A stretch of 64,000 bases of DNA from Rhea pennata. Its lineage: Eukaryota > Chordata > Aves > Rheiformes > Rheidae. The stretch spans positions 6,768,001 through 6,832,000 of the forward strand of contig NC_084682.1 in NCBI RefSeq assembly GCF_028389875.1, given 5' to 3'. The translations under genes and the position numbers were made by a program. The notes beneath the pieces are model-generated. The model had not been told where the DNA came from. It was given only the letters and a program-made list of their open reading frames with translations, and ran no database searches. The number at the start of each line of letters is the position of its first letter. The first letter of the stretch is position 1. Below, one piece after another: positions 1 through 59,862 of the stretch.

Positions 1-253
1 TGCCGGGGGTGCCGGGGCCGGGCGCACGGGAGAGCCCCTTCGCTGACGGCGGGGATGCCGGTGGCGCGGGGAGGGCCGGGAGCGGGCGACGGCCACGGCG
101 CGGACGTCGGGCTGGGGTCGGGCGTGCGCGGGGTGTGCGCGGGGAGGGACGCGGGCTGGGACCGCGCGCCGCCGAGGGGCGGGCACCCCGGCCCGCGGCC
201 AGCAAGGTGTCGGGGCTGGCCGGGGCGCTCAGCCCCTCCCGCCTCCCTCCCAG

Positions 254-605
254 ACGGCGTCCCCACGTCCTGCTGCTTCAGCTACCAGCTCCGACCCATC
301 CCGCGGGGCCTCATCGCCTCCGCCTACGTCTCCAACAGCAACTGCACTCAGCCGGGAGTGATGTGAGTACCGGGGGGCCGCCGCCGCCCCGGGACCCTCC
401 GCGGGCGCTCGGCCGGGAGCGGGGCCGGGAGCCGCGGTGGGGCCGGGGCACGGGGCCGGGGCGCCCGCGTCCCGCCGGCAAAGCCCGCTCACGGCCCTTT
501 GCTCCCCGCAGCTTCGTCACCAAGAAGCAGCGGGAGATCTGCGCCGACCCCCAGGCCGCCTGGGTCCGGGCGCACCTCAAACACTTCCAGGCGAAGCAGA
601 ACTGA
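254..605 (+). CDS. CC chemokine, MCP-like, copy A (partial, exons 2-3)
   Basis: Secreted leukocyte-attracting CC chemokine; exon 1 with the signal peptide lies left of the window. Exon 2 is 254-362 (acceptor CAG at 251-253, donor GTGAGT at 363) and exon 3 is 512-605 ending in TGA at 603-605. Phases 1 and 2 for the two introns are those usual for CC chemokine genes. Exon 2 encodes the adjacent CC pair and the third cysteine; exon 3 encodes the fourth cysteine in an EICADP motif followed by the WV-containing C-terminal helix. EICADP resembles the MCP/eotaxin group (CCL2/7/8/11/13), which fits synteny with TMEM132E. The coding exons are identical to those of copy B at 3726-4462, which reads toward it from the other palindrome arm. 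Which mammalian CCL it corresponds to cannot be settled by eye. Confidence 0.9.
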
Positions 606-1013
606 CCCGGCCGCGACGGCGTCCCGGGGCGGCCGGCGGCCCCCGCCGCGGCGCCCGGCCGGCCCCCGCGCTCGCACCGCCCCGCACCGCCCCGCACCGC
701 TAAAACTGTGTCTTTCTGGCATGGAGCCTTTTATTCTATTTAAGTTATTTGTGGTTAACTTAAGTTAAATATTTTTGCAAAAAAGAAAAAAGAGAAAATG
801 CAAAAAGAGTTTTCCTAATTTAAGTAATTTAAAAGGTGGGAAGCTGCCTGTGGGTGAGGGTTCGGGCAGTCGGCCCTGCTGCCCCAATAAAACGTTTGGG
901 TTACAAAGCGCCGTGAGTGTCTGTGTGAAACCGCCGCCGGAGCGCCGGCCCGGGGACGGGGCGGGGGGGACCCGGGCGCCCCGGGCTCGCCGCCTTCCTC
1001 CCCGCGGCTCCCG
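606..1013 (+). other. 3' UTR and poly(A) region of chemokine copy A
   Basis: Non-coding. After the TGA at 603-605 a short GC-rich part is followed by an AU-rich stretch (about 728-835) with an ATTTA pentamer at 738-742 and several TATTTT/TTATTT runs, like the instability elements of inducible chemokine mRNAs. The poly(A) signal AATAAA is at 886-891. The same arrangement is mirrored in copy B. Palindrome homology ends at 1013. Confidence 0.75.
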
Positions 1014-1254
1014 GGCCCAGCGCCGGAGGGGTGCGGGCAGCCTGGGGCGGCCCCGTGGGGCAGCTCCGTCTCTCGGGGCGCCGGGGCCGGCCCCACTGTG
1101 ATGCGCGCCGGCGTCGCGCGCCGCGGGGCCGCCGGAGCGCCGGCGGCTGTGGCCAGCCGCGGGAGGCGAGCCGTGCCCGGCGCCAACGCCGCCGTCCCGC
1201 GGGGCCGCCCCGGGGCTGCCCGCACCCCTCCGGCGCTGCTCCGGGTCTGCCGAG
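1014..1254 (+). promoter_or_regulatory. 5' flank / probable CpG promoter of PHF7-like gene
   Basis: GC-rich, CpG-dense, no TATA box visible. It contains a local inverted repeat: 1021-1054 is matched by the reverse complement of 1201-1235, with the outer 22 bases (1021-1042 against 1214-1235) perfect and one mismatch plus one indel beyond. The promoter assignment is inferred from position just upstream of the start codon at 1255. Confidence 0.5.
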
Positions 1255-3127
1255 ATGAAGCGTCCGGCCCCGGAGGAGGAAGGTGAGCGCGGAGCACCCC
1301 GACGGGGGATTTCGGAGGGAGCGGGGGAGCTGGGTCCGGCTTTGCAGACGCAGCGCGCCGGGAGCATCGCCCGCCCTCGCGGCGGCCTCGCGGCCCCGGC
1401 GCGGTGCTGACAGCGCCGCCGTCCCCGCCGGCAGCGTGCGGGCTGTGCCAGCGGGCCGACCGCGACCCCGAGGTCTTTGGGCAGACGTGCCGGCAGGACG
1501 GGCTGTGCGTCCACGAAAACTGCCTGGTGAGTGCGCGGGGCTCGGCGCCCGGCCCGCGCCCGCAGCCCTCCCCGGGGACACACGGCCTCTTTCCCTCCCG
1601 CAGTACCAGGCCAGCGGGCTGAGCCAGAGAGGAGCCGACGGCGAGGGCTTCTACGGCTTCCTCTTCCCCGACATCCGCCGGGAGCTGAAGCGGGCGGCCC
1701 GGAAGGTGAGGCCGGGCGCCCGCAGCCCCGGGGCCTTCCCCCAGCTCGGCGCCTCCTGCTCTGCAGCAGCCCGCGGGCACCCGGGGGTGCTCCGGCCGGG
1801 GGCGGCTGGCTGCAGCCGGACCCTCGCGTGGCCAGAGAGACCCGTTTCTGCACGAAGCGGGCATCCGGAGGGAAAAACGATCGGACCGGTTCCCTTTGCC
1901 GTTACGGTTTTCACGCCCGAGGTTTTATGCTCAGCATCCCCGGGGTGGCAAAGACGCTCGGCGGAGGCGGCAGCCGGGCTGCCCGCGGCGCTGACGCCGG
2001 CCGCCACCGTGCCGTCCCCAGACCTGCTGCATCTGCCGGCGGCGGGGGGCCTCCGTCGCCTGCCGGGGCCGGAGATGCCCCCGAAACTTCCACTTCCCCT
2101 GCGGCGGCGAGCGGGGCTGCGTCTCCCAGTTTTTCGGGGAGTTCAAGTGAGTGCGGAGGGCGCCGCAGCGGAGGAGGAGGAGGAGGAGGAAGGCTGGCGC
2201 GGGGCAGGGAGCTGAGCGGCCGCCTCCGCCCCGTCCCGCAGGTCCTTCTGCTGGCAGCACCGGCCGGTGCAGCGGGCGCGGGCGCCGCAGCCGGGCCAGA
2301 CCCGCTGCCTCGTCTGCCAGGAGGCGGTGGCGGGGCGGCCCCGCTTCGGCGCCCTGGTGTGCCCCGCGTGCCGCAGCGCCTGGTTTCACCGCGCCTGCAT
2401 CCAGGTACGCGCCGCCCGCCGGCGCCCCGCGCCCCCGCCGGGCCGGGGGCTCCCGCGGGCCCGGGGCTCCCGCGCGGCCGCCTCTCGCCCCGCAGGGCCA
2501 GGCGCTGCGCTCCGCCTTGCACCACTTCCGCTGCCCGCTCTGCCGCGACGTGGAGACCTTCCAGGCGGAGATGTTTCGCCTCGGCATCAAAATCCCCGAC
2601 AGGTGGGCGCGCGGCTCCGCGCGGGGAGAGGCCCCGGCCGGGCTGCCGGAGCCGCTGGCTCACTCCCCCGCGCCGGGCCTGCCAGGGACGCCGCCTGGGA
2701 AGAGGAGGGCGCCTTCGACGACCACTACCGGCGGCACAGCTCCTGCGACGCCGCGCGCTGCCTCTGCCCCGCGGGCCGGGAGCGGGCGGACGAGGAGGGG
2801 TGAGGCCGGCGGCGCCAGCGGTGGGCGCGTGCCCCGGCGGGGCCGGGAGCGGAGGGCTCCGGGCTGCGCCCCGGCCCCGGGCTCTCACGGCTCCCGCGCT
2901 CCCGCAGGCCCTGGCGCTTGCTGCTCTGCGACTCGTGCGGCTCCCGGGGCACCCACGGGCGCTGCGGCGGGCTGCCCGAGGCCGCCGGCACCTGGGAGTG
3001 CGGCGACTGCGCCGGCCTGGGCACCGGTGAGGGGCACGGGGCGGGGGGACGGGCGGACAGACGGACACCCTGGGGCTGCGATGGGGGCGGCCGCGCTCAC
3101 CTCCGCACCCCCGCAGCCCCCCGCTAG
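1255..3127 (+). CDS. PHF7/G2E3-like triple zinc-finger protein (ePHD-RING-PHD)
   Basis: Nine coding exons, 861 nt, 286 residues: 1255-1282, 1435-1526, 1604-1705, 2022-2146, 2242-2404, 2496-2602, 2686-2799, 2908-3026, 3117-3127. All introns are GT-AG and the frame is kept throughout. Residues about 11-122 form an extended PHD finger (C11/C14, later an FHFPC motif and an FGEFKSFC stretch ending CWQH). Residues 138-190 form a RING/PHD-type finger with ligands C138, C141, C156, C159, H165, C168 and a final C-x2-C. After an IPDRDAAW linker typical of PHF7/G2E3, a C-terminal PHD finger follows (about 225-280). All zinc ligands look intact. PHF7 proteins read and ubiquitinate histones in the male germ line; G2E3 also has a HECT domain, which is absent here. 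The last exon encodes only three residues. Intron 8 (90 nt) is in frame and open, so its retention would give 316 residues. It sits between inward-facing chemokine genes. Whether it is functional or a lineage-specific duplicate is inference. Confidence 0.87.
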
Positions 3128-3230
3128 CCCCCGGCCCCGTGGCACCCTCTCCGCCGGGACGACGGCACCGGGACGCTCGGAGGCCGCCCCGCCGCCCCCG
3201 CGGAGCCCCCCCGGCCTGCGGCAGGCACCT

Positions 3231-3236
3231 AATAAA
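3231..3236 (+). other. Poly(A) signal of PHF7-like gene
   Basis: AATAAA 104 bases after the stop codon, followed by an A-run and then GT-rich sequence (from about 3250), a normal cleavage context. The 3' UTR is about 120 bases long and ends before the right palindrome arm begins at 3318. Confidence 0.8.
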
Positions 3237-3317
3237 CGGCGAAAAAAAACACACGTGGGTTTGTGCTGGTGGCTGGGCTGCTGGGGAGGGCTGCTGGGGC
3301 CCACGGGGGCTGCGGCA

Positions 3318-3725
3318 CGGGAGCCGCGGGGAGGAAGGCGGCGAGCCCGGGGCGCCCGGGTCCCCCCCGCCCCGTCCCCGGGCCGGCGCTCCGGCGGCGG
3401 TTTCACACAGACACTCACGGCGCTTTGTAACCCAAACGCTTTATTGGGGCAGCAGGGCCGACTGCCCGAACCCTCACCCACAGGCAGCTTCCCACCTTTT
3501 AAATTACTTAAATTAGGAAAACTCTTTTTGCATTTTCTCTTTTTTCTTTTTTGCAAAAATATTTAACTTAAGTTAACCACAAATAACTTAAATAGAATAA
3601 AAGGCTCCATGCCAGAAAGACACAGTGCAAGCGGTGCGGGGCGGTGCGGTGCGGTGCGAGCGCGGGGGCCGGCCGGGCGCCGCGGCGGGGACCGCCGGCC
3701 GCCCCGGGACGCCGTCGCGGCCGGG
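3318..3725 (-). other. 3' UTR and poly(A) region of chemokine copy B
   Basis: Mirror of 606-1013. The poly(A) signal AATAAA on the - strand is at 3445-3440, 281 bases after the stop codon, and the AU-rich block lies at about 3496-3603. The only clustered differences from copy A are three adjacent bases at 3627-3629. Confidence 0.75.
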
Positions 3726-4462
3726 TCAGTTCTGCTTCGCCTGGAAGTGTTTGAGGTGCGCCCGGACCCAGGCGGCCTGGGGGTCGGCGCAGATCTCCCG
3801 CTGCTTCTTGGTGACGAAGCTGCGGGGAGCAAAGGGCCGTGAGCGGGCTTTGCCGGCGGGACGCGGGCGCCCCGGCCCCGTGCCCCGGCCCCACCGCGGC
3901 TCCCGGCCCCGCTCCCGGCCGCGCGCCCGCGGAGGGTCCCGGGGCGGCGGCGGCCCCCCGGTACTCACATCACTCCCGGCTGAGTGCAGTTGCTGTTGGA
4001 GACGTAGGCGGAGGCGATGAGGCCCCGCGGGATGGGTCGGAGCTGGTAGCTGAAGCAGCAGGACGTGGGGACGCCGTCTGGGAGGGAGGCGGGAGGGGCT
4101 GAGCGCCCCGGCCAGCCCCGACACCTTGCCGGCCGCGGGCCGGGGCGCCCACCCCTCGGCGGCGCGCGGTCCCAGCCCGCGTCCCACCCCGCGCACACCC
4201 CGCGCACGCCCGACCCCAGCCCGACGTCCGCGCCGTGGCCGTCGCCCGCTCCCGGCCCTCCCCGCGCCACCGGCATCCCCGCCGTCAGCGAAGGGGCTCT
4301 CCCATGCGCCCGGCCCCGGCACCCCCGGCAGGGCATCGCCCGCCCCGGCCCCAGCCCCGGCCGCGAGCGGGGAGCAGCTGCCGACTCACCAAGATGGGCC
4401 TCGGCCGGGGAGCAGAGGGCGGCGAGCAGGAGAGCAGCCAGGGCGGCCACCAAGACCTTCAT
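3726..4462 (-). CDS. CC chemokine, MCP-like, copy B (complete, 91 aa)
   Basis: Three exons on the - strand: 4462-4390, 4077-3969, 3819-3726; 276 nt, 91 residues. The start is the only ATG giving a signal peptide: MKV, then an Ala/Leu-rich core and cleavage near AEA-HL. The mature protein has the adjacent CC pair, a third Cys inside an N-C-T glycosylation sequon, and the fourth Cys in EICADP before the WV-containing helix, so all four canonical cysteines are present. It is secreted and expected to act on leukocytes through CC chemokine receptors. EICADP and the location next to TMEM132E suggest the MCP/eotaxin branch. A TATA box (4567-4561) lies about 95 bases upstream, and an AU-rich 3' UTR is present. 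It is the right arm of the palindrome and has the same coding exons 2-3 as copy A. Confidence 0.93.
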
Positions 4463-4560
4463 GGTGCTGCTGGGGCTCGGGACTTGCAAGAGGGGGACTG
4501 GTGCCGCCGGGCTGCTCTCCTCCGCCCCGTGCTCGTGCTCGGAGCCAGGCCGCTGCCCCC

Positions 4561-4608
4561 TCTTATAGTGGAGCCGCTGGGCGGGCCCAAGGTTTCAAAG
4601 AAAGAAAA
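4561..4608 (-). promoter_or_regulatory. TATA box and IRF-like motif of chemokine copy B
   Basis: On the - strand TATAAGA occupies 4567-4561, giving a transcription start near 4535 and a roughly 70-base 5' UTR. Just upstream, 4593-4608 carries overlapping GAAA/TTTC runs resembling an interferon-response (IRF/ISRE) element. TATA assignment is good; the IRF reading is tentative. Confidence 0.6.
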
Positions 4609-7522
4609 TGAGCACATCGTACCGGGGAAGCTGTGTCGGGATGAGCCCCGTTTTGCTGAGCTGGAAGATGCGAGGAAGCCGCAAAAGGGGAAGCGCCGGC
4701 CCCAGCTCTGCCACTTTCGGATTCCGTTTTCCTGCCCGGAGGCACCAGCCAGAGCCCCAGGCCCGCACACCAGCCCTTCGCCCTGCCCGCGCCACTGCTG
4801 CAACGAAAGCCACCGGCCTCCGCGGCCGGCCGAGACCCGGCGCGGCTTGGAGAGCTTCCCGCCCACTTTCCGTGGTGGAAATCCAAAGCGGGCGACCACG
4901 AAGTGCCTCCACCAACCTCCTGCGCAGGGACTTGCCTCGCTACAGCGCCGTGCAGCATCGCTGTGTTGCTGCAGACCTGCTCTGCCACGGCCGAGCCGAG
5001 CGCAGCGGAGCCGGCTCTGCACCATGGCTCCCAGGCCCTGCCGTTACTGCTGGCAGTAAAAACATTACCACTCTTAAAATCCAGAACTTTTCCATCGTTT
5101 TTGCAGCCTGGGAGCAAAACAGCCCCTAAAGGTGGGTTAAGAAACAGAGCCAGTGGGGGAAGGTTTTCTTGGCCAGGAGGCTACCAGACTTGAAAGGCAA
5201 CCAGCCAACAAGTATCATCAGGCCAGTGGAGTCCTCTATTAATGCCATCCCCCAGGACTGCTGCTCAGTCCTGACCAGGCTCCTTGGGAGCCTGCTCAAT
5301 GTGGCTCTTTTTCACCACACCACAGGCACAGACATCAAAGAGCCTGCTGTGAAACCACAGAATTTACCACTTCTTGTCAAAGCAGCCCAGGAAACCTGCC
5401 CGCCCCTGCTTTGACAGCCTCAGGCAAGCCGGGGGATGCTCCTTGAGGTTTTGGAAAAGGTCACCATGGTGTGAAGGCCACGCTCAGCCAACGCTGCTGA
5501 AATGTGGTGGCTGGAGACCACAAAGGACGTGGAAACTTGAGGATGGTGGTTAGGCACTGCATGACTGCTTTTTGGAGGGAGAGGCCAGATTCCCACAGGG
5601 TTGATCTGTGATGACCAACTAGGATTTTCCCCAGCACTCTCAAGGCTAGGAGAGGAAGAAAGGTGGAAAGGACAGCCTGGGTGGTAATGCTGGGGCTGAG
5701 CTCCCTCCGCATCCCAAAGGCAGGTGCATGTGGGCACTCCATTGCCGGTGGGAACCCTTTGGGTTGCATCGTTTCTGAGGACAAGGTGTGAATTTTGGCT
5801 TTCTGCTCCTCTCCTGCACTTGTTCCTGGGTTTTGGCTCATCCAAGGGCAGCACTATCTTGGTTTCCAGATGTCATGAACAGGCTCCCAAATGGGATGGC
5901 TTTTGAAACAGTCTTGTGATGCGTGTCCTGCTTCCTGAGAGGGTATGAGTCACTTGAAACTACTGGTGCGGGCTGACCCAGCTTGCAGGAGCCTGGGGCT
6001 GGAGCTTCAACAAGCAGCAGTGGAGACGGGGAGCTCTGAAATGAACCTGAAAGAGCCAGCAGCCGGAGCTGTGTTGTGGGAAACTTTTTCCGTACTCAGT
6101 GTTCAATATGCAACATTTGTGAGATGGGATCTGGATTCGGGTTGCGAGTTTGCACAGAGATTAATCTCATTTTCCAGAGCCTCTCTGTGTATTTATTTCC
6201 AGAGCACTGCAGACCTTTGGGTACAGGATGTGGGGAGAGTTTGGTGGCTCTGGAAAAAACCTTCACGCCCTGGGGGTGTAGCGGTGCTGCTGGCATTAAC
6301 ATTATTGCTCCCTGCTGTCGCTGGGGCCAGCCCTGCACGGCACAAAGAGCTTCCCCACTCCGCAGGGACACCGATGGGTTGCTGAGGTTCAACACCGCCA
6401 TGAGCAACCTTTGGAAAGCATCAACGGAGGCACTGCTTGGGACGGCGCTTCCCACCAGAGCCTGGTGCTGCCGCCGGAGCTGGCTCAGCTGCAACGGAGG
6501 GAGGGAGGAAAGCCAAGGCATGCATCTTCAAATACTTCCCTATTTCAGGGAAATCATTGAAATGAGTGACATCATGATCCAGTTTCCTTCACTTTTAGCA
6601 ACAAACTGCTATTTTGGCTGTCCTGGCCCAAAGTAGGCTCTGATGTAAGCTGCAGAGGAAGCAAGAAAGTTCCCGGTTACCTCTGCCTGGAGTGGTCCCA
6701 CTTGGGCACGTGCCACCCTTCCTCCGTGCACCCGACTGGAGCCATCGCTCCCACCGGGCTCAGAGTGAGCCAGGGCCGTGCGAGCCCCACACCGAAGGAC
6801 GGCACTAAACCCACAGCGAGAGCTCACTGCGGGGCTCTGCCTCGAAACACCTCCCTCGGCTCGCCGGGGCCGTTCTCTGCCCCCAGGGAGCAGAGCGCAG
6901 CCATCACCCCAGGGCTCCCTGGGGACCAGGCTGTTCCTGCAGGACCCCCGAGCCCCTCCTGGCTGCCTTACCCTGCTCCTTGCCTGCAGCGTTGCAAAGC
7001 ATCAGGCAGAGCCACATCCCTAAACCTCTGTCCCCAGCAGCCAGCATTTAACACCCTGCTCCTCTCCAGGACACCCAGCTGCAATGCATCTCCCCCTTCC
7101 AGCTGTGCTTCTCCCTTGGCAGCTCCAGCAGAGAGGTTAAGAAATTAAAAAGCAAAACCTCAAAAAAAAAAAAAAAAGGTATAAATAAGAAAAAAAACCA
7201 ACCCCTGCACTAACTGCCTGCACCCGGCTGTCCCATCTCAATCAACACCCAAGGGCTGGCAGCTGTGTGGGGCCTCCTTAAACCCCTCACTCCAGGCAGG
7301 GAAAACCTGGGGACAGCTCTAAGCCTCAGCCTGATGCCCTGAGTTTGCAGAGCATTTCAGGTCTGTCTTTCTCTCCTCTGGCAGCACTACTCTCCTGAGG
7401 TCTCCTGGACTATTTCTAGGTCCCCATAGCAAGGCAAAGCCCTGGCATGAGCCCCCCTTTCCCAGGAGGGATGTGCATCTCCTTGCTTCAGTGCCATGGA
7501 CACACAGGTCAGAGCAGTGTGG
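4609..7522. other. Intergenic, no gene seen
   Basis: About 2.9 kb between chemokine copy B and the next chemokine. The first 400 bases are GC-rich; the rest is ordinary mixed-composition DNA. No open frame with recognisable protein similarity or splice-consistent exons was found on either strand. An A-rich tract at about 7146-7200 (a 16-base A run, then TATAAATAAG and more A) is the only compositional oddity. Confidence 0.55.
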
Positions 7523-7697: not shown

Positions 7698-8769
7698 TTA
7701 AAGTCTGGGTGATGTCTGATTTCTTCTCTGTAGGAGGTACTTCTGGAACCATTCCACTTTGGGGTCCACGCAGACTTTCTTCCCCTTCGGCAGCTCGACG
7801 CTGGCAAGAGAGGGAGTTTGTCATTAGTTTGCAGGTCCTCTGCAGTGGCCCTGCTGGTGGGATGCGAGGCCATGCAGCCCCGGAGGCACCTCGGAGGCCT
7901 CCAGCTTGAGTCTTGCACCAGCAGCACCCCCCTCTGACAGCTCCTAAAATAGCTGGCTTTTAGCACCCTCTAGCCCTCCTTCGGTGATCTTTATCTGCTT
8001 CTTTCTCAGTTGACAACTTAAAACATCAAATTTGTTGGAATATTTGGCATAAATCGTCAAGGAGGGTGTCCTGTGTCAGTAGCGGGGCTGCCGCACGCAG
8101 CACTGCCCCTTTGGGGTGGCTCATCCCAAGGGCTCAGCTGTACCGGGACACTTAGCAGGGCTACCGCGGGCAGGCAGTGCCAAGCGAGGAGGAGCGCGGT
8201 GGCGGGGAGGAAGGCCGCGGCTACCAGGGGATACTCACATCACGGCTTTGCGGGTGCAGCTGGGTGACGTCTGTCTGTAGCTTTTGATGAAGCCTGCAGG
8301 GATTGTGCCTTGGAAGAACATCTCCGGGAAGCAGCACGTGGTGTAGGGGCTGCGGACTGAGAGGGAGCAATGGGGGTTGGTGCTGTCCCGCACGAGTCAC
8401 GACCTGAGTCGGTTCTCTACCCATCCTCCTTGCCCAGAGCAGCTACAGCCGAGGGCAACGAAAAGCCAGGGTCTGGCTCTACTGAAACCACGCCAAAGTC
8501 TGCTTCCCCTCCGTGTAATGGGAACACGGCAGCCCAGGCAGCTTTGGACACCCTTCAGCAACCGAAACCTGCAGCCAGAAGCAGGCGTTCAGGCAGTTCC
8601 CCCTTCCCTCACATCCCTGTCCCCAGGCTGGAGGAGTCTTAGATGGGACGGGGGCAGCCCGCAAGGTATGAGAAAAGGCTTTGAGTCAGTACTTACAGGA
8701 CTTGCCCTGGGTTTCCGTCAACAGTGCAGCAAGAAGCAGAGAAACTAGGGCTAGGGAGAAGACCTTCAT
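7698..8769 (-). CDS. CC chemokine (97 aa), eotaxin/MCP-like
   Basis: Three exons on the - strand: 8769-8697, 8356-8239, 7800-7698; 294 nt, 97 residues, intron phases 1 and 2 as in other CC chemokines. The signal peptide is MKVFS... with a Leu/Ala core, probably cleaved after TETQG. The mature chain has a TTCCF pair, a third Cys (SPSC) and a fourth Cys in KKVCVDP, followed by a W-containing helix. The C-terminus is longer and more basic than in its neighbour and ends after an N-Q-T sequon. The loop after the CC pair is unusual (PEMFF). It is secreted and presumably a leukocyte attractant. The closest mammalian counterpart is uncertain; AVI...KGKKVC resembles the eotaxin/CCL26 type more than MIP-1. 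TATA box at 8872-8866; poly(A) signal at 7528-7523. Confidence 0.92.
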
Positions 8770-9826: not shown

Positions 9827-10414
9827 CTAGCTGGGGATGGAGAAGGAGCTGGCCTTGAAGGTCTCCTGGTACTTCTTCACCCAGGGCCTGCCGGCTTGGG
9901 CGCAGATCTCCTTGCCGTTTTTCACCTTGAATCTGGCGGAGGGCAGACGGGAGCGGGCTCAGCGGGCGGCCGCAGCGGAGCGGGGCGCGGCGCCGGCCCG
10001 CGGGCCGCGGCCGGCCGGGCGCTAGCCCCGGCGAGGGGAGGCGGGCGCTCACATGACGGCCCGGTGCGGGCACTCGGGGCTCGTGGCGTAGCAGCCCACC
10101 ACGTTGTCCTTCTTGATCCTCCTCATCTGGAAGTTGAAGCAGCACTTGTCCGGAATGGCCGGGGCTCCTAGGGGACGGCGGGGGCTCGGCTCGGCTCGGC
10201 TCGGCTCGGCTCGGCCCGGCAGCACCCGGCCGGACGCCCCGCACGAAGCGGCGCCGGCCCCACGGCCCTCCCCGCGCCTCCCCCCCGGGGCTCGCCGCCC
10301 GCCGTGCTCACTCTGGGCCAGGCTCCGGCAGCACAGCGCAGCGAGGAGGAGGAGGAGGAGGAGGAGGAGGCGGAGGAGGGCGCCGCTGCCGCCGGCTCCG
10401 GCTGCCTTCGCCAT
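9827..10414 (-). CDS. CC chemokine (107 aa), CCL1-like by position and extra cysteine
   Basis: Three exons on the - strand: 10414-10312, 10167-10053, 9932-9827; 324 nt, 107 residues, intron phases 1 and 2. The signal peptide is long, with a run of nine leucines encoded by repeated CTC codons, and probably ends near SLAQ. The mature chain has DKCCFNF, then a G-C-Y cysteine, PEC, and EIC, i.e. five cysteines instead of four. Human CCL1 has its extra cysteine at the same Cys-Tyr position, but it pairs with a C-terminal cysteine that is missing here. AVIFKVKNGKEIC resembles the MCP group. It is the chemokine nearest TMEM132E, as CCL1 is in human. CCL1 orthology is therefore plausible but unproven; it could be an MCP-type paralogue that gained a cysteine. 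Confidence 0.9.
10185..10214. repeat. Pentanucleotide microsatellite (CTCGG)6
   Basis: Six head-to-tail CTCGG units inside intron 1 of the third chemokine gene, close to its 3' splice site (exon 2 begins at 10167 on the - strand). Confidence 0.95.
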
Positions 10415-18000: not shown

Positions 18001-20900
18001 TGAAATCCCGCTAGGGGACCCTCACAGGCCGCGGGCGACTCGCTAGGATCGGGGCTCGGCGCTCGGGGCGATGCAGGGAGCGGAGGGACCTCTGGGGCCG
18101 AGCGCTGAAGCTGAGCGCGGAGCGAAGGCGCCGGCGAGCCCCGGCCTGGGAGCCGTCCAGGGCGCCCGTCAAGCGACTCGTTGAGCGATGAAGGATTTAC
18201 GGAGCCAGCAATCTGCTCGTGGGTATTTTGCCGGGCAGCAGGGGGGAGGGAGGCTGCATGCCTGGAATAAACGGCTCCCCGTGCGCGGCGCGGGGGGATC
18301 TGATGGGGGTGTCAGTCATCTCAGCTTGCCGGTGCCAATCCGCTAAAGAGGAGCCCGCGCAAGTGCCGTTCGCCGGCAGCGGGGGAGCCAGACGGGGGGG
18401 GGGGGCAGAACGACCCGCTGCGCTCCTGGCGGCGGGAGGAAACGAGCTGGGTTTATCCGAAAAGCACAGAGCGAAGACACACGGGGATCCCGCTCGCGGC
18501 CTCCGCTGCGCCCCGCTCCCCAGGCTCGGCAAAGATGGCATCAGACCGCCATGGGTCTGAGGCTTTCTCATTGCAACGAGCCGATATTTTTGCCCGGCGA
18601 TGTCCCCCCCACCCCCCTATCCCGAAGGCAGGACGCACGGACAGGGACAGCCCTGCGAAGGGGGATCTCAGCAGCCGCGATCCTGAGCGGGCCGCCAAGC
18701 AAACCGCCCCGTCGCACCAGAGCCGGGGCGGGGGGGGGGGGGTGGAAATAAACCTGGTTATTTCGGTGCCAGGGGTCCTGGGGTCCCGCCACGGCTCAGC
18801 GCGGGGCCAGCGGCCCCGCTCTGCCCTGCTCCGCGGTATTTCTCTCCCGGGGAGCTGCCTTAGCTGGAGGGGGACTGGAGAGGGCAGTAAAAGCCAAGCC
18901 GAGCCCCAGCCGGAGCGGCAGCCGCCATCTCCTCCGCACGCCTGCAGCCCGCAAAGTCCCCGCAGCTCGGCGGGGCCTCGCCGGCCGCAAGCAGACGAAG
19001 CCCGGGAGAGGCCGGGACGGTGCTCACCGGGACGGTGCCTGCCGAGACGGTGCTCGCAGGACGGTGCCCACCAAGATGCTGCCCGCCAGGATGGTGCCCA
19101 CCAAGATGCTGCCTGCTGGGACGGTGCCCTCCAGGACGGTGCCCACCGGGATGCTGCCCGCCGGGATGCTGCCCTCCAGGACAGTGCCTGCAGGGACGCT
19201 GCCCGCCGGGACGGTGCCCGCCGGGACGGTGCCCTCCAGGACGGTGCCCGCTGGGACGGTGCCCGCAGGGACGCTGCCCAGGGTCTCGGCCCAGCTCGGG
19301 GCTCTCCCCGGGGTCAGCGGCGGCGGAGCGGCAGGCTGGGAGCCGCGCGCAGGCACCTGGGCAGCGGGTCGTGTCTGGAGCGGGGAAACGACCGGACCGA
19401 GCCCGGCAGTGCCAACCCCTCCCCATCCCTCCAACGCCCCCAGCTCCTCCGGGCTCTCCGTCCCTCCCCAGCAGGGATTCGGGAGCCGGGGCGGTGCCCA
19501 GAGCCAGGGCTGCGTGAGGAGCGGCGGCTGGAAGAACCAGCAGGACGTCGCCGACCGCCACCTTCAACGGGCGTTTCGGAGCGGACGGGCAGGCACCCCG
19601 GAGCCGAGCGGAGCGGGAGCGGGGCCACGCCGAGCCCCGGCCCCGGCCGGCGGCGGGGTCAGGCAGCAGCCTGTAAAATCCCCCCCTCGCGCCGCGAGCA
19701 GCCCGTTGGCGGGGGAATCGGCGGCCGGGCCCCGCCGGCGCCGCGGCGGGGGCGAGCGGAGGCCGGCCAGGCCTCGGCGGCCGCGGCGGCCTCCGTATCT
19801 GGGCCATTCGCCACTCGAGACTTTTAGCGCCCCGAGCAACGGCATGTACTGCTGATGAGTTCTTTCTGCTCCAGTAATTACAGTGAGGAATTTGTCAGAA
19901 CGAGCTTTCTAAAACCTTCTTGTCTTGTTCTGATTTTACCTGGAGTGTAAAAAGTCATTAGTATGGTAAAACGGAGGCTGTGCTAAGCCAGCAAGCCATC
20001 CAGATAACACGGGTTACATCCACTCCACGCTCAGTATGCAAAAAACCAAACCAAAACAAAACCCCCAAACAACAACAACAAAAAAACCCGTCTGGCTTTA
20101 TTTTTTACCAAGATGGGAGTTTTCCACAGTTGAAATTATCCAGCAGAAGGTGGCAGGGCTTGTGGTGTTTAGAGCACGAAACCCCTCGGCTCCGCTAACC
20201 CGCCCTTCCCGAGGCAACGCTTCCCGCGGGATCCCACCGCGGGAAAAACCTGGGAGGGTTCCTCCAAAAGCCGGCCGGATCAGCATCTCCCCGGCGAAGC
20301 CTGCTCCAGGGTTATTAGCTCCAGGGACGAGCACAGCAGTGGAAACCGCCGGCGGATAACGCTCCTCGGAAATTACCCCCTGCCACGGCAGTTGCTTTGG
20401 TGCAGGGCGGGAAAAAAATAGCTGTCGATCCTCTCCCGGGGGCTGCAGCGGCGGGATAGCTGCGCTCCCGGCTCATCCAAGCTCCCCGGGGCTCCCCGTG
20501 TCCGAGCGCGCTCCGGTTTAAGGGCTATTAGCCAGGAAGCCTCGAGGGGGAGGGCGAATTGGAGTGTTTTTTAAAAAAGGAAATACTTCCACCTGGAGGG
20601 AAAAAGTCACATTGGGCTCCAATAAAAGCGTTTTGGTTTGGATTTAATCAAATGCTAACTTTTTAGAGGGCCGGAAAGGAAACCCTTTGGTGGGGGTAAT
20701 TTGGGATTCAGAGTATTTCCAGCATTTTCTCGGGCTCAGTGAAACATCCCTGAAGGCCACTTCAAAGAGAAAAAGTGATTTCAAGGCAGAACGTTGCTTT
20801 CTGGCGATGCAATATCCAAGCATTAAATTTCTTCCGTTTTTTTTTTCCGTTTTTGTAATGAACATCTTAGCAAAATTAGATCAAACGCGTGTATGTTTTT
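18001..20900. other. Intergenic, CpG-rich with minisatellite, no gene seen
   Basis: Very GC- and CpG-rich from 18.0 to 19.8 kb, including a 13-base G run near 18729-18741 and the 15-bp minisatellite annotated separately. An AT-richer block at 19.84-20.0 kb follows (TTACCTGGAGTG... region) and could be a conserved element. The long + frame 18535-19827 crosses the minisatellite and is judged non-coding. Confidence 0.45.
19014..19279. repeat. 15-bp minisatellite, about 18 units
   Basis: Units of consensus GGGACGGTGCCCGCC run head to tail from 19014 to 19279, with one 14-base unit at about 19059-19072 that shifts the register. Variation is mostly transitions plus a G/C change at the eighth base (GGTG or GCTG). 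Because the period is divisible by three, long open frames appear on both strands. Confidence 0.95.

Positions 20901-30422: not shown

Positions 30423-59862
<29,440 letters not shown>

Follow-up and report, generated by a model that had tools for sequence, protein, structure and literature searches.

In the chicken, two large CC chemokine clusters have been described on chromosome 19, and one of them contains two genes of the CCL1-like and three of the MCP-like type (PMC1082905). The MCP-type CCL genes number six in chicken, five in turkey and three in zebra finch (PMC2935454). Since the number of MCP-family genes differs among birds, gain and loss of genes are normal in such a cluster. The gene PHF7, a testis gene, is described as having undergone extensive duplication in both chicken and turkey (PMC10360393), and 60 copies have been counted in the chicken, of which 16 are Z-linked (PMC12794477).

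Two kinds of inverted duplication resemble the locus described here. The first are the ampliconic palindromes of sex chromosomes (primate Y, bird W), in which inverted arms carrying genes enclose a unique spacer. The arms of primate Y palindromes average 73–344 kb, and those of the human Y are at least 99.9% identical (PMC3403216). The second are the inverted duplications generated by fold-back or template switching, in which an inverted copy is found with a short inverted patch at the junction (PMC3907307, PMC7954356); patches of this sort can arise when replication switches template (PMC7954356). Here we investigate a pair of CC chemokine genes inverted around a PHF7-like gene in Rhea pennata, an arrangement for which no report was found in the open-licence literature.

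The window, which is the whole 64-kb stretch of DNA analysed, covers C20:6768001-6832000 of a 1.27-Gb assembly in 180 contigs; positions to its left are given as negative numbers. An earlier inspection of the letters, the sequence-only reading, had proposed inverted arms of at least 1013 bp with 12 mismatches and no indels. On recounting, window positions 1–1013 and 3318–4330 are reverse complements with exactly those figures, and the mismatch count becomes 13 once the arms are taken four bases further inward, to 1017/3314. The length holds as a minimum, but the homology ends neither at 4330 nor at the window edge. Extension to the left, as that reading had proposed, places the end of the arm homology at -614 (C20:6767386). 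The full left arm therefore extends from -614 to 1013, with 4945 down to 3318 as its mirror image on the right, and the arms comprise 1,628 nt with 14 mismatches, no indels and 99.14% identity. The homology stops abruptly at both ends. The left arm (plus strand) is within the window from 1 to 1013, and the right arm (minus strand) is there in full at 3318–4945. The palindrome centre is near 2165. A search of the window with 14-nt seeds reported no inverted pair of at least 60 nt other than this one, and no second palindrome. Neither the window nor the adjoining 30 kb on its left contains any N.

Each arm contains a whole three-exon CC chemokine gene, together with 483 nt of sequence ahead of the ATG, which include a TATA-like box, and at the other end an AATAAA signal and some sequence beyond it. 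In the left gene (plus strand, 254–605 within the window) exon 1 lies to the left of the window at -131 to -59, coding exons 2 and 3 are at 254–362 and 512–605, and the poly-A signal is at 886–891 by eye. The right gene (minus strand, 3726–4462) has its coding exons at 4462–4390, 4077–3969 and 3819–3726, and its TATA-like box precedes the ATG by 105 nt. The coding sequences of the two copies, at 276 nt, are identical and encode a protein of 91 aa. This protein matches the Pfam IL8 profile (PF00048) at 66 bits, against a cut-off of 21.3, and has the adjacent cysteines and four-cysteine spacing of a CC chemokine (CCX22CX15C, counted by eye); three coding exons are also as expected, and the signal peptide was recognized by eye only. 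The best matches in the PDB are CCL3, then CCL4 and CCL5. Because the sequence favours the solved CCL3, CCL4 and CCL5 over the MCPs, the placing of this chemokine in the MCP family rests on its position.

The spacer (1014–3317, 2.3 kb) is occupied by one complete PHF7-like gene on the plus strand (1255–3127), with its ATG at 1255 and a stop codon that ends at 3127. Its nine coding exons (1255–1282, 1435–1526, 1604–1705, 2022–2146, 2242–2404, 2496–2602, 2686–2799, 2908–3026 and 3117–3127) encode 286 aa, and every intron is GT-AG. The gene is transcribed toward the right chemokine copy; its poly-A signal is at 3231–3236, and the poly-A signals of the two genes are about 200 nt apart, both by eye. 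Residues 9–283 of the protein align with PHF7 in the PDB (E 4.7e-81), residues 212–279 match the separate PHF7 PHD structure 1weq, and 24 of 26 cysteines and 6 of 12 histidines of human PHF7 are kept. With Pfam at E 0.001 only the zf-HC5HC2H (ePHD) module was reported, RING and PHD going unreported. Judged by modules (ePHD, RING-like and PHD in the order of PHF7) and by zinc-binding cysteines, the protein belongs to the PHF7 family. The sequence-only reading was thus right to see in the spacer almost exactly one complete zinc-finger gene of the PHF7 type, and the arms and intact genes bear out its compact palindrome of chemokine, PHF7-like gene and chemokine. The inverted chemokine pair is probably a real structure.

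What is the chromosomal setting of this palindrome? Two further CC chemokine genes are present on the minus strand within the window. One, at 7700–8769 (ATG 8769; low end approximate), is CCL1-like by its CCX24 spacing, and the other, of which exons 2 and 3 are at 9851–10156, is MCP-like, with CCL13 as its best PDB match and CCL4 next. A synteny marker is provided by a TMEM132-family gene on the plus strand (45672–59859, assumed to be one gene), with N-terminal domains in the ORF at 45672–46595 and C-terminal domains in that at 58750–59859. Ten ORFs from the 37 of at least 250 aa were compared with Pfam; two matched TMEM132 and eight had no match. The same contig carries a second CC chemokine cluster at 12.36–12.40 Mb and, at 2.2 Mb, an acetyl-CoA carboxylase gene, one of two such loci, ACACA and ACACB not being told apart. 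The palindrome thus lies beside CCL1-like and MCP-like genes and is separate from the CCL5/CCL4-type cluster that this chromosome also carries; CCL1-like and CCL5-like are tentative names, guided by cysteine spacing. TMEM132E borders the human CCL2-CCL1 cluster, and ACACA is on chicken chromosome 19. The two CC clusters, the acetyl-CoA carboxylase gene and the TMEM132 gene together point to the homologue of chicken chromosome 19, an autosome, and, by gene content only, the locus seems to be autosomal.

The locus is therefore an immune cluster, as had been claimed, and it resembles the MCP-type CCL cluster of chicken chromosome 19 (CCLi5-10/CCL1L, CCL/MCP-L) in having two CC clusters on one contig (PMC1082905). 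The likeness extends to CCX22CX15C chemokines with CCL1-like and MCP-like neighbours, in a cluster whose copy number varies between birds (PMC1082905, PMC2935454). It differs in that two near-identical copies are inverted here around a PHF7-like gene. An exon-wise scan of the genome with PF00048 gave nine matches, six of them on this contig and none in the window; since the window's own chemokines were missed, the scan is no census, and a regular-expression scan for chemokines can also miss genes. Two IL8-family matches on C61 (a contig of more than 71 Mb) may be the Z-linked CCL19/21.

The comparison with sex-chromosome palindromes, of which the sequence-only reading had considered this structure typical, does not stand. 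A location on a sex chromosome is disfavoured by the gene content of the contig, which fits an autosome. Ampliconic palindromes have arms of tens to hundreds of kb at about 99.9% identity or higher, whereas the arms here are 1.6 kb at 99.1%, and there is no second palindrome in the window.

At the inner end of the left arm there is an additional feature. Just inside it, at 1018–1055, lies a 38-bp patch that is an inverted copy of 1201–1238, both belonging to the PHF7-like gene's 5' region. The exact core of the patch is 25 nt (1018–1042/1214–1238), compared with 15 nt for the longest exact inverted repeat in 300 first-order Markov sequences. Identity is about 95% over the core by eye, 82% ungapped over 44 nt and 69% over 221 nt; the patch is more diverged than the arms. 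It is possibly the scar of a template switch, and may be older than the arms. We reject a fold-back centred on the small 1018/1238 hairpin, since the palindrome itself is centred near 2165. The locus shares with the described fold-back and template-switch duplications the inverted copy and the short inverted patch at the junction, yet its spacer is a whole 2.3-kb gene and its centre is not at the small hairpin (PMC3907307, PMC7954356).

We favour as the likely explanation a recent, lineage-specific, local inverted duplication of one CC chemokine gene across a pre-existing PHF7-like gene, within an avian MCP/CCL1-type cluster on the homologue of chicken chromosome 19. That the duplication is recent and lineage-specific is suggested by the identity of the arms alone. 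A single 1.63-kb segment, with promoter, three exons and poly-A signal, would have been copied in reverse to the far side of the PHF7-like gene, and this older, unrelated gene would thereby have become the spacer. Two observations make the right chemokine copy the probable original and the left its inverted copy: the right copy shares the minus strand with both of the neighbouring chemokines found, and the odd 38-bp inverted patch lies at the left arm's inner junction. Replication template switching may have been the mechanism of copying. The PHF7-like gene, at most 59.1% identical to the 12 other loci compared, became a separate gene much earlier than the duplication, if the latter is dated by the 99% identity of the arms. 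The avian rate is about 1.5e-9 per site per year, and if the arms have been neutral the duplication would be a few million years old. In our assessment, the palindrome is probably a real and tidy example of a known process.

Is the 99.1% identity of the arms the result of youth? Or, has later gene conversion kept them alike? It reflects one, the other or both. An old palindrome, common to many birds, could have kept its arms more than 99% alike through arm-to-arm conversion, as an autosomal miniature of the Y and W palindromes; we regard this as unlikely. All 14 arm differences lie outside the coding exons, those at arm positions 640, 681 and 702–704 being downstream of the stop codon, and the chance of finding none in 276 coding nt out of 1,628 is p 0.07, or 0.11 if the triple change at 702–704 was one event. 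In addition, the outer 641 nt of the arm contain only 2 of the 14 differences (p 0.04–0.09), a division chosen after seeing the data. With 702–704 as one event the two tests give p = 0.09 and 0.11, neither of which reaches 0.05, so the clustering of mismatches is weak. With a chance probability of 0.07–0.11, coding identity is no proof of conversion or of selection, and purifying selection explains the identical coding exons equally well. Conversion between the arms is possible: they are inverted and 2.3 kb apart, and hence well placed for it, and the greater divergence of the junction patch, if it dates from the duplication, would be consistent with an older palindrome whose arms conversion has homogenized. 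The matching chicken cluster, with three MCP-like genes that are close relatives of one another (PMC1082905), would also be in keeping with age. Against this, 99.1% is far below the 99.9% or more of the often-converting human Y arms (PMC3403216). A fuller version, in which an ancient mini-palindrome across birds keeps two chemokines identical by conversion, with a testis-type PHF7 as its permanent spacer, would place a Y-like palindrome on a recombining microchromosome, at work within an immune cluster, and we consider it improbable.

An assembly artefact, either a false duplication or a mis-joined haplotype inversion, is improbable to a similar degree. Inverted repeats are hard to assemble, and an arm divergence of 1% is within the allelic range. 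However, the inverted orientation and the unduplicated 2.3-kb gene between the arms would be unusual for a haplotig duplication or a hairpin read, and different single-copy sequence adjoins each arm on the outside with no gap.

The idea that the unit is one mobile chemokine-PHF7-chemokine module, as the sequence-only reading had suggested, or a repeatedly amplified one, we consider very improbable: despite the compactness of the unit and the PHF7-like tandem arrays (C2, C20) and repeated groups (C1) elsewhere, the arm is found in full only twice, at one locus, the outer flanks are single-copy, and no close copy of the spacer gene was found among the PHF7-like matches listed, the 12 other bird loci compared being at most 59.1% identical to it. 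The counts behind this are lower bounds for the arms, which gave 28 matches in the 1.27-Gb genome, two of full length (100 and 99%) and 26 partial, each of 102 nt or less. The left outer flank (384 nt) and the right outer flank (651 nt) each match only themselves. Besides itself, the PHF7 5' region (241 nt) matches nothing but its own inverted repeat. No sign of a transposon or of a repeated module was seen at the arms, at these flanks or in the 5' region. On this evidence we reject the mobile module.

The local duplication that we favour may have consequences for the genes involved. Since both copies are intact and share promoter and protein, the dose of a single secreted chemokine should rise, provided that both are expressed. 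The PHF7-like protein, if it acts as PHF7 does, would be a nuclear E3 ubiquitin ligase and histone reader with a separate job, unrelated to chemokine signalling. The locus gives a base-level view of how one inflammatory chemokine gene was doubled with its promoter and coding sequence intact, in a cluster that varies in size among birds. If its breakpoints are common to other birds, it would offer a small, tractable autosomal system for measuring conversion between inverted arms.

The spacer gene itself belongs to a large family, with at least 165 matches to PHF7-like exons in this genome, its own exons included. The matches listed are on contigs C1, C2, C5, C6, C7, C12 and C20; they form tandem arrays on C2 and C20, and repeated groups on C1. 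Chicken PHF7 is reportedly (Fouchecourt 2022) on chromosomes 1, 2, 12, 19 and Z. The description of PHF7 as a male germ-line factor was a fair one (PMC10360393). Its presence in an immune cluster, which had been called unexpected, is confirmed as to both the cluster and the type of gene, but is less surprising than it looks because the family is spread over several contigs and one dispersed copy lies about 69 kb to the right of the spacer gene.

The spacer gene is 46.5–59.1% identical to 12 other loci compared in the same genome, values that lean upward because the pieces compared were chosen as the best match to its exons. A tree was built from 14 rows (the spacer gene, 12 bird loci from the larger family and human PHF7; no rows dropped). 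In it the other 11 bird loci form a group that excludes the spacer gene and a copy on C7, with support of 92/93, which is below the tool's star, and the positions of the long rows (spacer and human) were flagged as unsure by the tool. Two rows are doubtful: C1_199.94, with a 7-residue edge piece and one stop, and C12_21.80, with one piece from the opposite strand. The locus has in common with the PHF7 expansion of chicken and turkey a gene that aligns with PHF7 over its full length and many copies on several contigs. It differs in that the spacer gene appears from these comparisons to be an isolated paralogue on its own branch and not an array member. Such an isolated lineage could help to root the large avian PHF7 expansion.

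Other members of the family are arranged in several ways. In the array at C2:23322339-23442084 there are 21 listed matches to one exon, mostly 5.75 kb apart, and the two members compared, at 23.37 and 23.44 Mb, show no difference over the pieces of protein used. In the second array, at C20:10057179-10094778, nine matches to a single exon are listed, most of them spaced by 4.28 kb. Near-identical dispersed copies are found 3 Mb apart at C20:9896531-9897653 and C20:6840439-6841561. Within the window there are also two tandem repeats: a GC-rich 15-bp repeat of 18 copies at 19011–19279, within a 507-aa open frame without a Pfam match, and a 20-bp repeat of five copies at 39023–39124.
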